The notes under the pieces were generated by a model. That model saw only the letters and a program-made list of their open reading frames with translations. It was not told the DNA's origin and did no database searches. Of a DNA stretch of 64,000 nucleotides, positions 16,161-25,135 are shown piece after piece. Origin of the DNA: a virus; the IMG/VR virus record IMGVR_UViG_3300023178_000030, positions 1 to 64,000 of that record. One strand, written 5' to 3'. Both the position numbers and the translations under genes were made by a program. Every line of letters starts with the position of its first letter. Position 1 is the first letter of the stretch.

Positions 16161-17624
16161 ATGAAAACTTTCAAACAATATGTGTTGGCAGAAGCAGATA
16201 CATCTGGTGCAACCAACACAGAAATAGCAATTTGTTATCAATACAACTTAAATAGAACAAACGACCACGATAAGGCACTTTCTGACGGTGGTATTGATCC
16301 AAAAGACTTCCAAAAACTAACTCCAGAACTATTAGAAATCGGCAAAAAAGTTGCTGACCAGATGGGAAATAGAGGCCCAATGTTGGTTCATTCTGGTAGA
16401 GCAACTGCTAGTAAAAACTATTATGAGGGTGCAAGAGATGTTACTCCTAAAGCAGATTTCTTTGGTAATTCAAAAAATTACATTTCCTTAAAAAAATCAG
16501 GTGAAAGTGGTGCTGGTGCTCAATTAATGAGTGCTAAATCTGCTGAAGCTGCTGGTGTTGTAAAAGCCGCAGTTGGTCATTATGAAAATGCAACTGGTAG
16601 TGCTTTATCAAATAACAAAGATTTTGCAAAAGCAATTTCTATTCTAGAACAAGAAATGAAAAAAACTGCTCGTAATGATTTAAATGTTGAAGTTGCAAAA
16701 GGTAAAAAGAGTTTTGAAGATTGGTATGTATCTTCAAGTTCTCGTAGAGATAAAATACTTAAAAAAGAAAAAAATAAAAAGAAAGTTGATGCACATTTGA
16801 AAGCAGAACTTGGTTTGATTGGTGCTACAAGATTTAGTAAAAATCTTGAGAAAAATTTAATTGGTGGTATTGCACCAATTAGTCAAGCGCAACTTAAAGT
16901 GTATTATGATGAATATGCAAATGATTCCAAGTATAAAGTTGGAGATGTTACTGTTAGTGGTAAATATTTAAAAAATGTATCTAAAGATTTGTTATCTGAT
17001 GAAGCATTAAAAAAACAAATTACAGAAGTTATTGATACTTCCGTTAAATCTCTAACTTGGCAAAATGAACTTACAAAATTTTTTACTGATAATGAAGATT
17101 TAAAAAAATGGATAGTATATGAAGCAGGTTCTGGATTGTATAAATTCACAGGAGAATATTCTTCTGGTTCAAATTATTTTGGTTCAGATCAAAATGTTGC
17201 AAATAAAATATTAGTATTTTCTAGTGATGGTATTAAAACAGAATATGATATTATGAAATATGCAGAGGAGAATACATCACTAGTAAATAAGATATCTGTC
17301 AGTTATAAAGGTTCTGGTAGAAGCAAATATATTAAACTAGGTATTGCATCTGCAATGGAATACGAAATGCCATTTTTAAAAGAAGAAATGGATAAATTAG
17401 AAAAACAATATTACTTATCTGAAGGAATTTTTAGTGGTTTGAAAAAGAAACTTTCTACATTTGTAGATTCTGCAAAAAAACTGATAAAGAAGTTTTATGA
17501 AAATGTAATTAAAAGAGTAATAGGAAATATTAAAACACTTGCACAAAAAGGTGTTAATATTTTTCTAGATTCTATAGGATTGGAATATACTCCAAATGTG
17601 ACGATTGGAACTCCAAAATGGTGA
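16161..17624 (+). CDS. Putative internal head protein with capsid-targeting sequence
   Basis: The 487-aa protein opens MKTFKQYVLAEA, very like the T4 internal-protein capsid-targeting sequence MKTYQEFIxEA, including an LAE cleavage site for the gp21 prohead protease. The rest is unlike T4 internal proteins. AICYQYNLN and GRATASKNYYEGARDVTPKAD are conserved-looking, and the C-terminus is basic and amphipathic (LKKKLSTFVDSAKKLIKKFY). It is expressed from the composite late promoter. I infer packaging with the DNA and possible ejection into the host. No enzymatic family is recognised. Confidence 0.65.
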   Translation: MKTFKQYVLAEADTSGATNTEIAICYQYNLNRTNDHDKALSDGGIDPKDFQKLTPELLEIGKKVADQMGNRGPMLVHSGRATASKNYYEGARDVTPKADFFGNSKNYISLKKSGESGAGAQLMSAKSAEAAGVVKAAVGHYENATGSALSNNKDFAKAISILEQEMKKTARNDLNVEVAKGKKSFEDWYVSSSSRRDKILKKEKNKKKVDAHLKAELGLIGATRFSKNLEKNLIGGIAPISQAQLKVYYDEYANDSKYKVGDVTVSGKYLKNVSKDLLSDEALKKQITEVIDTSVKSLTWQNELTKFFTDNEDLKKWIVYEAGSGLYKFTGEYSSGSNYFGSDQNVANKILVFSSDGIKTEYDIMKYAEENTSLVNKISVSYKGSGRSKYIKLGIASAMEYEMPFLKEEMDKLEKQYYLSEGIFSGLKKKLSTFVDSAKKLIKKFYENVIKRVIGNIKTLAQKGVNIFLDSIGLEYTPNVTIGTPKW

Positions 17625-18868
17625 TAAGTTTTTCTGATTATCTAACAGAAGATAAAGGTGGTAAGAATTTACATCTCGAACATATCGAAGATGAGATTCT
17701 AAACTATGGTGTTGATGGTGGTAGAGCTGCAATTAATTTTGTTCAATCATTAAGAGATATGTTAGCAGGTTCTAGTCGTTCATCAATTAATATGACTGTA
17801 AAATGGGATGGTGCTCCAGCAATATTTGCTGGCATTGATCCTGAAGATAATAAATTTTTTGTTGCAAAGAAATCTGTATTTAATATCAATCCAAAACTTT
17901 ATAAATCAGTTGCAGAGATTGATGCAGATTTATCTGGTCAACTTAATGATAAATTTAAAGTTGCACTTGCAGAATTTTCTAAACTTAATATTAAAGGTGT
18001 TTTGCAAGGTGACTTAATGTTTACATCAGATGATATTAATACAGAAAATATAGATGGAACAAAGTATTATACATTTCAACCTAATACAATTGTTTATGCA
18101 GTTCCAGTAGATTCTGATTTAGGTAAACAAATTAAAAATGCAAAAGTTGGTGTTGTATGGCATACAACTTACACAGGTGATGCACTACAAGATATGAAAG
18201 CTTCATTTGGTGCAGATGTATCTAATTTAAATAAAGTATCTTCAGTATGGACTGATGATGCAACTTATAAAGATGTTTCAGGTAAAGCAACAATGACTGA
18301 AAAAGAAACTGCAATTGTAACAAAACATTTATCAAATGCAGGTAAAACTTTTAGAAAAATTAATTCATCATTGTTAAAGAGTTTTTTAAATTTACAAAAT
18401 ACATTTACTGGTGTGTATGCAAGTGCAGGTTTAAAAACATATAACAATTCAAAAGTAAGAGAAGGTAAACCAGTATCAGATGCAAAGAAACACGCACAAG
18501 GTTATTTAAAGTGGGTTGAAAATGCATTTGATAAACAGATGAATAAATTAAAGACAGATAAAAGTAAAGAAAAAGTAAAAGTCAAAAAGACAGAAGTATT
18601 AAGAGAATTAAAAAAACATACAGTTAATTTATCAAACATTGTAGATTTTCAGAATCACATTGTCAATGCAAAAATGGCTGTGGTGAAGAAACTAAATAAT
18701 GTTAGACAGTTAACAGATACATTTATCAAAACTGCAAATGGATACAAAGTAACAAATCCAGAAGGTTATGTTGCAATTGATAGAGTAAAAGGAAATGCAG
18801 TTAAACTTGTTGACAGAATGGAATTTAGTTTTAATAACTTTACGGCAATAAAAAATTGGGATAAGTAA
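17618..18868 (+). CDS. Polynucleotide-ligase-fold-like protein, probably head-associated
   Basis: Several segments are placed like ligase/nucleotidyltransferase motifs: KWDG at residues 62-65 (motif I KxDG), GVLQGDLMF at 127-135 (motif III-like), EGYVAID at 382-388 (motif IV-like) and KGNAVKLVDR at 391-400 (motif V-like). The order fits a DNA or RNA ligase fold with a helical insert. The N-terminus VISFSDYLTED resembles a capsid-targeting peptide. The start at 17618 overlaps the previous gene by 7 bp. It is conserved in marine T4-like phages as an uncharacterised family; activity is my inference. Confidence 0.6.
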   Translation: MVISFSDYLTEDKGGKNLHLEHIEDEILNYGVDGGRAAINFVQSLRDMLAGSSRSSINMTVKWDGAPAIFAGIDPEDNKFFVAKKSVFNINPKLYKSVAEIDADLSGQLNDKFKVALAEFSKLNIKGVLQGDLMFTSDDINTENIDGTKYYTFQPNTIVYAVPVDSDLGKQIKNAKVGVVWHTTYTGDALQDMKASFGADVSNLNKVSSVWTDDATYKDVSGKATMTEKETAIVTKHLSNAGKTFRKINSSLLKSFLNLQNTFTGVYASAGLKTYNNSKVREGKPVSDAKKHAQGYLKWVENAFDKQMNKLKTDKSKEKVKVKKTEVLRELKKHTVNLSNIVDFQNHIVNAKMAVVKKLNNVRQLTDTFIKTANGYKVTNPEGYVAIDRVKGNAVKLVDRMEFSFNNFTAIKNWDK

Positions 18869-19267
18869 ATGAAAACTTTTAAAGAATTGATGCAATCACT
18901 ACCAGAGAAGAAAGCAATGAGTTTTGCACAAAGACGAAAAGTAGGTATTCGTATGGGAAGAATGGCAAGATCATCTGCATTTCAAGCTAAACTAAAAAGA
19001 CTTCGAGGTAAAATGGCAACACCTGAAAAGTTAATGAGAAGAGCAAGAAAACAAGCGAAGATGTTAGCAATTAAAAAGTTTGGTGGTGTGTCTGCAAAGA
19101 ATTATGCACAAATGCCTGCATCAAAAAGAGTTACATTTGATAACAGAATTCTTGCAACTAAAGGTGCATTTATACAAAAAGTTGCAAAGAAGTTATTAAG
19201 AGTAGTAAGACAAAAAGAAATACAAAGATTGAAAACTTACAAACAAAATTTGAGTGATAAAAAATGA
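18869..19267 (+). CDS. Very basic head-internal protein with capsid-targeting sequence
   Basis: The 132-aa protein begins MKTFKELMQSLPEKK, a capsid-targeting-like sequence with an LPE cleavage site. The remainder is extremely rich in Arg and Lys (QRRKVGIRMGRMARS, MRRARKQAKML, KKLLRVVRQKEIQRLK). It probably binds DNA inside the capsid. It abuts the preceding stop and overlaps the next start by 4 bp, so it belongs to the same late unit. Confidence 0.7.
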   Translation: MKTFKELMQSLPEKKAMSFAQRRKVGIRMGRMARSSAFQAKLKRLRGKMATPEKLMRRARKQAKMLAIKKFGGVSAKNYAQMPASKRVTFDNRILATKGAFIQKVAKKLLRVVRQKEIQRLKTYKQNLSDKK

Positions 19268-21615
19268 AGGTAACAAAAGACCGAGCTATACAAAGATTTC
19301 AACAGAATCATCCTAAAACAAAAGACTATGATGCGTTTGTAAAAACTCAAGGTGCATCATTACAAAAAAAGTTACAGAAGATGGTTGATTTTGCAATGAA
19401 GATTCCAAATAAGAAAAATCAAGCAAAATACATTGATAACGAGGTTCGTGATATAGAAAGAGAATTAATTAAAAACTACGAAAAACAAATGAAAAAAGAA
19501 GAAGTTGTTTTAAAAACATTTAAAGATTTAAGGGAAGAAAAAAAGAAAACAGCTGTGTTTACTTTTGGTAGATTTAATCCACCAACAATAGGTCATGAAA
19601 AACTTATTGATAAAGTTTCTAAAGTTGCAGGTAGTAATTCTTATTTCATTTATCCATCTCATTCACAGAATACAAAGAAAGACCCATTACCACAATCTTT
19701 AAAGATTGCATATATGAGAAGTATGTTTCCAAAACACGCAAAGAAAATTATTGCAGGAACAGAAAAGAATGTATTTGACATTGCAGTATCTTTATACAAT
19801 AAAGGATTTACTGATATAGAAATGGTTGTAGGTTCAGATAGAATTAGAGAATTCAATAAGATATTAACAAAGTACAATGATGTACAAGGTAGACATGGAT
19901 TTTATAATTTCAAAACTATTACTGTAACTTCTGCTGGTGATAGAGACCCTGATGCAGATGGTGTAACAGGTATGTCTGCATCTAAAATGAGAGGTGCAGC
20001 TTTATCAAATGATTTTGAAACATTTAAATCTGGATTACCAAAAACATTTGGTCATGCACAGAAAATGTTTAAAGACATTCGTAAGTATATGAAAGTTGTA
20101 GAATCATTTAATACAATTTCACCTACATTAACTGAAGAAGATGTTATAAGAGATATGTATTTAGAAAATAAAATCTTTAACATTGGTGATATAGTTGAAG
20201 ATGTTTATACTGGAGTTTCTGGTGAGATAATTCGTAGAGGAACAAACTATCTTGTATTTGCAGAAGAAGATGGAACATCACACAAGAAATGGTTATTTGA
20301 AATACAACTAAAAGAAGATTGTTGGCCTGGTTACAAACAAGTTGGAATGAAAGATAAGAATGGAAAGAAAGTTCCTAATTGTGTTCCAGTAGGTGAAAAG
20401 AATGTAAAACAAGATAAAGATGTAAAAGATAAAGAAGGAACACAACCTGCAAAGTATTTTGCAAAAGATGCTGATGGTGATGAAATGTCAAAGTCTACAA
20501 AAGACAAAAGAGATGCACATTTCAAAAAAGGTGCAAGTAAGTCTGATGATGACCCAAGTGCATACAAACCAGCGCCTGGTGATAAGGGTGCAAAAACTAA
20601 ATTATCAAAATACACAAAAGCAATGAAAAAGAAGTATCCTGATTTATATAAAGAATCTGCTGATTCTTCACTAAAAAAGAAAGCAGAAAAGTCTGGAATA
20701 TCTTTCTCAATATTAAAGAAAGTTTACAATCGTGGTGTTGCGGCTTGGAGAACAGGTCACAGACCAGGTACTACTCCTCAACAATGGGGTCATGCAAGAG
20801 TTAATTCTTTTATGACTGGTGGTAAAACTCGTTCAACTGCTGATAAAGATTTATGGCAACAACACAAAGGTAAGAGCGAAGAAGTTAATACTGCTGATGC
20901 AATGAAAAGATACAAGTCTGGTAAAGCAGGATTTACTGACATTGCACATTTAAAAGCAAAAGGTTTAATTAAAAGAAGTGATGGAACAAAAAAGAAATCA
21001 GACAAATATGAAGATGGTGGTGCAGGTGATTGGGGAACTGATAAACTTGCAAACAAATATAAAAAAGATACGCCTGGTCAATCTGTAAAATCATTTACAG
21101 AGTTTCGTTCATCATGTTGTGAAGATTGCGAACAAGAATCTGATTTAATTGAATCAAATATTTACAGAGTTGGTTCTCAAAAGTATTTTGAATACTTTTT
21201 GGAAAAGAAAAAACTATACAAAGAAAATAAATTAAAAGTCGATAACAAATTTGACATTGAACTATTAGAAGGTGATATTGGTGAATATGCAGAATATGAA
21301 GGTAAAAATGTTGCATTAGATACACCAATGTTTGAAGAAGATGATGTTGAATTAAATAAACCTAAAAGGGGTGGCCCTAAAAAATATTATGTTTATGTGA
21401 AAGACCCATCAACAGGTAATGTTAAAAAAGTTACTTGGGGTGATACAACAGGACTTAAAGTTAAATTAAACGACCCTGAAGCAAGAAAAAGTTTTGCAGC
21501 TAGACATAAGTGTGATACTAGAACAGACAAAACTAAAGCATCATATTGGGCGTGTAGATTACCAAGATATGCAAAACAACTAGGTTTATCAGGCGGAGGA
21601 AACTTTTTTTGGTAG
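19264..21615 (+). CDS. Large head-associated polyprotein with nucleotidyltransferase domain
   Basis: This 783-aa protein has several parts. Residues 1-80 are helical. An internal capsid-targeting-like KTFKDLREE lies at 84-92. A cytidylyltransferase/NadM-like domain follows, with GRFNPPTIGH (102-111) and GMSASKMRGA (near 236). A segment at about 335 starts EDCWPGYKQVG. A block at about 470-530 (SGISFSILKKVYNRGVAAW, then GHRPGTTPQQWG) resembles DUF5824. The C-terminus reads KYYVYVKDPSTGNVKKVTWG and ARHKCDTRTDKTKASYWACR. LxE sites between blocks suggest processing by the prohead protease. Confidence 0.75.
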   Translation: MKVTKDRAIQRFQQNHPKTKDYDAFVKTQGASLQKKLQKMVDFAMKIPNKKNQAKYIDNEVRDIERELIKNYEKQMKKEEVVLKTFKDLREEKKKTAVFTFGRFNPPTIGHEKLIDKVSKVAGSNSYFIYPSHSQNTKKDPLPQSLKIAYMRSMFPKHAKKIIAGTEKNVFDIAVSLYNKGFTDIEMVVGSDRIREFNKILTKYNDVQGRHGFYNFKTITVTSAGDRDPDADGVTGMSASKMRGAALSNDFETFKSGLPKTFGHAQKMFKDIRKYMKVVESFNTISPTLTEEDVIRDMYLENKIFNIGDIVEDVYTGVSGEIIRRGTNYLVFAEEDGTSHKKWLFEIQLKEDCWPGYKQVGMKDKNGKKVPNCVPVGEKNVKQDKDVKDKEGTQPAKYFAKDADGDEMSKSTKDKRDAHFKKGASKSDDDPSAYKPAPGDKGAKTKLSKYTKAMKKKYPDLYKESADSSLKKKAEKSGISFSILKKVYNRGVAAWRTGHRPGTTPQQWGHARVNSFMTGGKTRSTADKDLWQQHKGKSEEVNTADAMKRYKSGKAGFTDIAHLKAKGLIKRSDGTKKKSDKYEDGGAGDWGTDKLANKYKKDTPGQSVKSFTEFRSSCCEDCEQESDLIESNIYRVGSQKYFEYFLEKKKLYKENKLKVDNKFDIELLEGDIGEYAEYEGKNVALDTPMFEEDDVELNKPKRGGPKKYYVYVKDPSTGNVKKVTWGDTTGLKVKLNDPEARKSFAARHKCDTRTDKTKASYWACRLPRYAKQLGLSGGGNFFW

Positions 21616-24589: not shown

Positions 24590-24741
24590 TGTGGCCTGAA
24601 TTGATAGAAGAAAGACCAGTAGAAAAATCATCTGAAGATGATGAAAAAAATATTGAAGCATGGCCTTTTCCTACAACAGAAAGTATGAAAAGGTCAAAAC
24701 TTCAACAAGAAAAACAGGATAATAAAAATGAAAAAGTTTAA
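24589..24741 (+). CDS. Small hypothetical protein (50 aa)
   Basis: ATG 24589 overlaps the preceding stop and TAA 24739-24741 lies inside the following gene. The product, beginning MWPELIEERPVEKSSEDDE, is very acidic with a proline-rich patch (AWPFPTTES). Overlaps on both sides support translation by coupling. No family is recognised. Confidence 0.5.
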   Translation: MWPELIEERPVEKSSEDDEKNIEAWPFPTTESMKRSKLQQEKQDNKNEKV

Positions 24742-25135
24742 AGACTATATTACTGAAAAATCATTAGATACTCAAAATGCAGTTGATGATGCTAGTTTCA
24801 ATAATGATTTAAGTAATCCAGATACAATTGTAAAGATTAATTCTTATCTTGCACAGTTAGGTAAAATGGAACATTTAGTTCCAGAAAATGCACTTAACAA
24901 ATTAAAAGACAAACTTGGTAGATTAAGTATTTCTTTTGAAGATGTTGAGTTAACTGGTAAGAGTGATACTTATGATTTACCTTTAACACAGTTTGGTGGT
25001 CGTTTTGGAAAAGACGAAGAAGGTGATATCAATGATGACGGTATTTCACACAAAGTAGAAGGTGGTTTAAAATTACAACTTAAACATGAAGTAACATCAG
25101 GAAACACACATTTCTTAATGGCAAAAATAGTTTAA
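24728..25135 (+). CDS. Head-associated protein with capsid-targeting sequence (135 aa)
   Basis: It begins MKKFKDYITEK, a T4-like capsid-targeting peptide with an ITE cleavage site. The rest is an alpha segment (KINSYLAQLGKMEHLVPENA) followed by beta strands and an EGDINDDG acidic loop. At 135 aa it could be an internal head protein. It overlaps the preceding small gene by 14 bp. Confidence 0.6.
   Translation: MKKFKDYITEKSLDTQNAVDDASFNNDLSNPDTIVKINSYLAQLGKMEHLVPENALNKLKDKLGRLSISFEDVELTGKSDTYDLPLTQFGGRFGKDEEGDINDDGISHKVEGGLKLQLKHEVTSGNTHFLMAKIV

Follow-up and report, generated by a model that had tools for sequence, protein, structure and literature searches.

What is the function of the 416-residue protein encoded on the forward strand of the window analysed here, the first 64,000 nucleotides of a partial virus record of 78,962 bases (IMG/VR IMGVR_UViG_3300023178_000030)? 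The first-pass annotation had described a ligase-fold protein predicted to travel in the capsid, which once ejected might at once seal phage DNA ends or repair host RNA; its observation was confirmed by our analysis, and its interpretation is partly supported, with both of these roles standing as proposals. Judged by its sequence, we would describe the protein as a ligase-like nucleotidyltransferase that stands outside every ligase family and, in its own clade, bears a predicted capsid tag. As a whole, the reading of a capsid-delivered, ligase-like covalent nucleotidyltransferase in the tagged clade is one towards which we lean slightly.

Re-checking the open reading frame and its translation returned the frame, length and motifs that had been claimed, with a reverse strand packed with stops. 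The protein begins with MVISFSDYLTED and contains the motif strings given in Table 1, QGD lying within GVLQGDLMF. It is a full-length member of DUF6267 (PF19782): residues 17–411 match positions 1–375 of the 376-position profile (E 2.1e-104; 350 bits against a cut-off of 27). DUF6267 corresponds to PHROG 455 and to the cyanophage cluster 'T4-LIKE GC: 71'; the window protein also falls in PHROG 455 (phrog_455), a family with no assigned function, and these were its sole matches in searches of Pfam, NCBIfam and PHROGs, in which consensus sequences did no better. By tblastn, homologues occur in 460 phage records, chiefly of T4-like cyanophages, and beyond these in Methylophilales phage Melnitz (75% identity), Pelagibacter phage HTVC008M (41%) and Stenotrophomonas phage DLP6 (43%). 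A vibriophage query against IMG/VR found no relatives, and our literature search found no paper that names DUF6267.

Table 1. Features of the DUF6267 locus and its flanks, in window coordinates
Feature	Position	Strand	Basis
Upstream partner gene, overlapping the DUF6267 start	16161..17624	+	ORF list; no Pfam/PHROG family
PD-(D/E)xK-like signature PKADFFGNSKNYISLKK in the upstream protein	16446..16496	+	
DUF6267 protein, 416 aa, ligase-like nucleotidyltransferase candidate	17618..18868	+	PF19782 match; conservation in 118 homologues
Predicted capsid-targeting sequence (CTS) MVISFSDYLTE, predicted cut after Glu11 (Glu10 with GTG 17621)	17618..17650	+	Homologue N-termini; T4 CTS rule
Motif I KWDG, residues 62-65, predicted nucleotidyl lysine K62	17801..17812	+	Invariance; register with T4 Rnl1 K99
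Motif Ia-like K85 (FFVAKKSVF)	17870..17872	+	Invariant; register with T4 Rnl1 K119
Motif III-like QGD, residues 130-132, Asp versus ligase Glu	18005..18013	+	Q130, D132 invariant
Poorly conserved, probably helical segment, about residues 215-375	18260..18742	+	Alignment; coiled-coil-type chance matches
Motif IV EGYV, residues 382-385	18761..18772	+	E382, G383, V385 invariant; register with Rnl1 E227, Rnl2 E204
Motif V-like KLVDR, residues 396-400	18803..18817	+	K396, R400 invariant; K396 in register with Rnl1 K240
Small basic protein, tag-like N-terminus MKTFKELMQSLPE	18869..19267	+	ORF list; tag pattern
Cytidylyltransferase/NMNAT-like protein	19264..21615	+	PF01467 E 7e-5; PHROG 3041 E 3e-93
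Tag-like KTFKDLREE just ahead of the NMNAT-like domain	19513..19539	+	
NMNAT-like protein motif FGRFNPPTIGH	19564..19596	+	
NMNAT-like protein motif GMSASKMR	19969..19992	+	
Protein with predicted CTS MKKFKDYITE, no known family	24728..25135	+	Flank family; motif in 13 of 14 members

One line of evidence for a ligase-like enzyme is the conservation of its motifs. Viral and genome scans collected 378 homologous ORFs, and 118 diverse members, down to 24% identity, served to define invariance. K.DG[AS]P is kept in 376 of the 378, the remaining two being fragments that lack the region; part of the scans used patterns containing KxDG, but the patterns of the DLP6-seeded scan did not and the GenBank relatives came from tblastn, so this conservation does not merely reflect selection. 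In the 118 homologues H19, K62, D64, G65, P67, G72, F81, K85, Q130, D132, N156 and Y160 are invariant, as are H182, T183, Y185, N277, K352, E382, G383, V385, K396, R400, F403 and N407. Ligase motifs I, Ia, III, IV and V find their counterparts, in that order, among these residues: K62/D64/G65, K85, D132, E382/G383/V385 and K396. Given the near-universal K.DG[AS]P and the invariant residues, the motif match in the window protein exceeds chance. The ligase order first noticed for KWDG, GVLQGDLMF and EGYVAID is thereby borne out, and K62 and D64, whose lack of conservation had been named beforehand as evidence against the idea, are both invariant. The proposed motif V, KGNAVKLVDR, fared less well: K396 is invariant, but the second Lys of the KxK typical of ATP-dependent polynucleotide ligases is Val in the window protein and in nearly all relatives. 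Together with the Asp that takes the place of Glu in motif III, this is one of two steady departures from the ligase pattern. Motifs III and IV lie about 250 residues apart in the window protein, a stretch that the alignment shows to be much shorter in a 300-residue class of the family. No OB-type or Rnl-type C-terminal domain is present, since the protein stops about 20 residues past motif V.

How close does DUF6267 come to known ligases? Profile–profile comparisons (hhalign), run for register with the insert excised and the N-terminal tag removed, place K62, K85, E382 and K396 exactly on K99, K119, E227 and K240 of T4 RNA ligase 1 (Rnl1; RnlA, gp63; PF09511). Motifs I, Ia, IV and V all sit at offset 0 in this alignment, and its score of 23.3 lies above the highest value, 21.6, reached when the columns were shuffled 100 times; across the 600 shuffles of all comparisons (100 per comparison), two motifs never came into register together. 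We regard the Rnl1 result as supportive but short of final, because shuffling preserves column composition and not local order. Motifs I and III fall on K159 and E217 of T4 DNA ligase at offset 0 with all five query profiles under one column setting, a register that disappears under another (-M first), and in the 300-residue class motifs III and IV fall on E99 and E204 of T4 RNA ligase 2 (Rnl2); the Rnl2 and DNA ligase scores lie inside the shuffle range. Raw E-values span 0.03–0.5 (DNA ligase 0.037, Rnl1 0.046–0.087), like those for 35 unrelated flank families, and by this measure ligases are not separable from unrelated families. Several of the top unrelated matches are due to a shared N-terminal tag (families N027, N022 and N005); N013 matched elsewhere. 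Global mode gave no useful result. HMMER found no ligase family for the window protein, and ligase models scored DUF6267 no higher than decoys, although a lone member matches PF09511 at E 0.017. Searches of PDB sequences with the protein or a profile returned only chance coiled-coil matches in the helical insert. Since no ligase-family profile was matched significantly with either HMMER or hhalign, and since motif V deviates, we do not assign DUF6267 to any such family.

These results bear directly on the suspicion that the fold is unrelated and that the eye has read ligase motifs into a chance resemblance. The insignificance of every profile search, with Rnl2 and DNA ligase scores no better than shuffles, is what such a coincidence would produce. 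It would leave unexplained, however, why five ordered motifs are each invariant in 118 sequences and why the Rnl1 score exceeds all 100 of its shuffles, none of which aligned two motifs; weak E-values are moreover found between true ligases (Rnl1–Rnl2 5e-4, Rnl2–DNA ligase 9e-5, Rnl1–DNA ligase 0.16). We consider coincidence decidedly unlikely and a nucleotidyltransferase fold probable from the sequence evidence. Of the ligase fold originally claimed, the invariant K62 and D64 and the Rnl1 register at four motifs stand, whereas the E-values, motif V and the C-terminus do not conform.

Among characterised enzymes, the motif layout is nearest to T4 Rnl1, with which DUF6267 shares KxDG, an FKSKGS-like motif Ia, EGYVA (identical in the window protein and T4 Rnl1) and the motif V Lys in register. 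It differs from Rnl1 in showing no significant sequence match, in lacking the second motif V Lys and the C-terminal domain, and in having a long insert between motifs III and IV, plus a CTS in the tagged clade. Tail-fibre attachment is likewise promoted by T4 Rnl1, which to our knowledge is not an ejected protein. The likeness to T4 Rnl2 (PF09414; motifs III and IV) and to ATP-dependent DNA ligases (PF01068; motifs I and III) is limited to register in some settings, and DUF6267 has neither the OB domain nor motif VI of these enzymes. An NAD+-dependent ligase (LigA) was considered as a model and rejected, as PF01653 matches nothing in the relatives' records searched.

If the fold is that of a nucleotidyltransferase, is the protein a ligase? 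It might instead adenylylate a protein, a cofactor or a tRNA end, or merely guard or regulate its nuclease-like upstream partner. Such a role would accommodate the Val in motif V, the missing C-terminal domain and the invariant HLEHxED, PNT..Y and HT.Y outside the ligase motifs, which suggest special chemistry, as well as the position next to hypervariable nuclease-like genes and the fusion of the NMNAT/cytidylyltransferase-like protein to DUF6267 in S-PM2. The register of motifs I, Ia, IV and V with Rnl1 and the shared EGYVA speak against it, and we rate a non-ligase role as rather unlikely. On the same sequence comparisons, a true polynucleotide ligase is a possibility that we hold to be slightly doubtful.

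The N-terminal extension raises the second part of the question, namely where the protein acts. T4 internal proteins are loaded by means of their first ten residues, in which mutation assigned positions 4 and 7 to targeting and 8 and 10 to processing, and gp21 cleaves after L/I-X-E (PMC9026906). In 137 of 167 distinct DUF6267 N-terminal extensions of 12–20 residues, [LIVM]xE ends at residues 8–12, with Glu exactly at position 10 in 113. These 113, a set selected for Glu10 ([LIVM]xE) with positions 4 and 7 outside the selection, have F4 in 88%, F/Y7 in 88% and L/I8 in 100%, while positions 2, 3, 5, 6 and 9 are variable; in the 94 extensions of length 14, taken without such selection, the figures are 88% for F4, 92% for F/Y7 and 77% for E10. 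Conservation thus coincides with exactly the positions that matter in T4 (4, 7, 8 and 10). The window protein fits F4, F/Y7, L/I8, E10 exactly if translation starts at GTG 17621, which is probably the true start rather than ATG 17618, since the tag Glu then becomes residue 10, as in most relatives. Each of the five complete relatives searched has a gene for a Peptidase_S77 (gp21-type) protease, and none was found in the partial 79-kb source record.

The tag is a property of part of the family. Most DUF6267/PHROG 455 members of characterised genomes, which are cyanophages, lack it, unlike the window protein; these cyanophage homologues and the entire 300-residue class start directly at the conserved HLEHxED. 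On the DUF6267 tree the tag is strongly clustered, yet several gains or losses are required. Packaging is accordingly predicted for the tagged clade only, in which we consider it very likely. At six loci of a clade near HTVC008M, N-termini of the MFSFKGFITKEKNT type keep F4 and F7 and have lost the L/I-x-E cut site; by their sequence, these proteins may be targeted but uncleaved. Compared with the T4 cargo that bears a CTS (IPI, IPII, IPIII and Alt), the ten-residue tag is alike in its aromatic positions 4 and 7 and in its L/I-x-E at 8–10; the T4 cargo, however, consists of a small inhibitor or an ADP-ribosyltransferase, whereas DUF6267 is a ligase-like enzyme whose packaging is predicted.

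Published proteomes support the view that, in related phages, proteins with this CTS travel in the virion. In S-CREM2 (PMC10665884), 52 of 219 annotated proteins were detected in virions, against five of the six annotated proteins with a CTS motif (Fisher P 0.003): a SAM hydrolase (MKDFDSFLEE), an APH-like kinase (VKRFDAFLTE), a cytidylyltransferase (MKNFSSFLTE), gp13 (MKDLHSFLTE) and gp136 (MQTFSMFFSE). In S-SZBM1, a cytidylyltransferase with MRFRQFIIE was detected in virions and two small tagged proteins were not (PMC9146016). The untagged DUF6267 proteins of S-SZBM1 (PMC9146016) and S-CREM2 (PMC10665884) were detected in neither virion proteome, and our literature search found no proteome of a phage with a tagged DUF6267 protein. 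Three studies report relatives of the NMNAT/cytidylyltransferase-like protein from cyanophage virions, and they cite the same for S-CBWM1. The virion non-structural enzymes of S-CREM2 (our loci L512 and L511) listed in Table 3 of PMC10665884 begin with a T4-like tag, which goes unmentioned in the available passages of that paper. The Cas9-like gp12 of S-CREM2 has a similar stretch, LRFASFMAE, about 17 residues in.

Could the protein nevertheless be an ordinary intracellular replication or repair ligase whose N-terminus is no capsid signal? In most phages DUF6267 lies in the replication cluster (gp43, uvsX, gp41), cyanophage homologues work without the tag, and some relatives have no other ligase: PF01068, PF09414, PF09511 and PF01653 found none in Melnitz, C48C1, HTVC008M or S-SZBM1, while DLP6 carries a PF01068 ligase. 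The pattern alone is also unspecific, as 28 of 150 UvsX N-termini match it. It is rare, however, in the neighbouring DNA polymerase (0 of 50) and helicase (1 of 227) flank families, it is conserved at exactly the T4 positions, and it is shared with unrelated neighbour families and with virion-borne enzymes of S-CREM2, so that we regard a purely intracellular ligase as very unlikely. The prediction of capsid travel thus gains support from the T4-CTS positional features and by the virion proteomes of related phages, but does not extend to the untagged cyanophage homologues. In one contig DUF6267 is flanked by a true ATP-dependent DNA ligase (57.6 bits; ORF at offset 262 of L335), so some of these phages carry both.

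The neighbourhood of DUF6267 is usually ordered gp43, uvsX, (2OG oxygenase), gp41, MazG, a variable gene, DUF6267, cytidylyltransferase and, further on, gp61 and nrdA. The gene immediately upstream of DUF6267 is hypervariable across loci, comprising many unrelated sequence clusters, of which several carry the tag and at least eight have one conserved signature in common, D-hydrophobic...(S/E)xK. This signature is typical of PD-(D/E)xK nucleases. The upstream protein of the window combines such a signature (Table 1) with a tag-like N-terminus, MKTFKQYVLAE. A loose regular expression for the signature matches 127 of 237 upstream ORFs and 17% of other ORFs; because a Pfam search of the upstream genes gave no match backing a PD-(D/E)xK nuclease, we treat this candidate assignment as a lead only. 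Tag-like N-termini also occur in DUF6267 flanks on HAD phosphatase-like proteins (DIDDTLF; for example MKTFIQFLEE) in three contigs and on adenylate kinase-like P-loop proteins (for example MKTFLTFLEE) in four.

Building on the observed motif conservation, CTS pattern, gene neighbourhood and gp21-type proteases of the complete relatives, we infer the following model for the DUF6267 protein, covering its fold, its chemistry with AMP, its substrate and its purpose. In the tagged clade, this ligase-like covalent nucleotidyltransferase would be synthesised with its ten-residue CTS and packed into the prohead, where a gp21-type protease would trim it after the [LI]xE site, and it would be released into the cell along with the phage DNA. 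Once inside, K62 would accept AMP from ATP and hand it to a nucleic-acid 5' end, thereby sealing or protecting ends early on, perhaps against host nucleases, the enzyme acting beside the upstream nuclease-like and the downstream NMNAT-like protein. We know of no earlier case of a ligase-like enzyme delivered from the capsid. One may further imagine that a conserved ligase-like enzyme, a hypervariable, interchangeable PD-(D/E)xK-like nuclease and an NMNAT-like enzyme with one shared tag form a kit injected by marine T4-like phages, an early cut-and-seal weapon or counter-defence that precedes phage gene expression; we put this extension forward as speculation that is unlikely to hold in full.

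What would such an enzyme mean for these phages? If the model is correct, a very widespread, uncharacterised gene family (460 phage records) typical of T4-like phages from the sea would acquire a testable function, and its tagged members would be, as far as is known, the first capsid-delivered ligase-like enzymes. With the tag rule F4, F/Y7, L/I8, E10, which was checked against a virion proteome from the literature, uncharacterised genes whose products are injected can be listed easily, and this opens the early takeover of hosts by uncultured marine phages, and their counter-defence, to direct tests.
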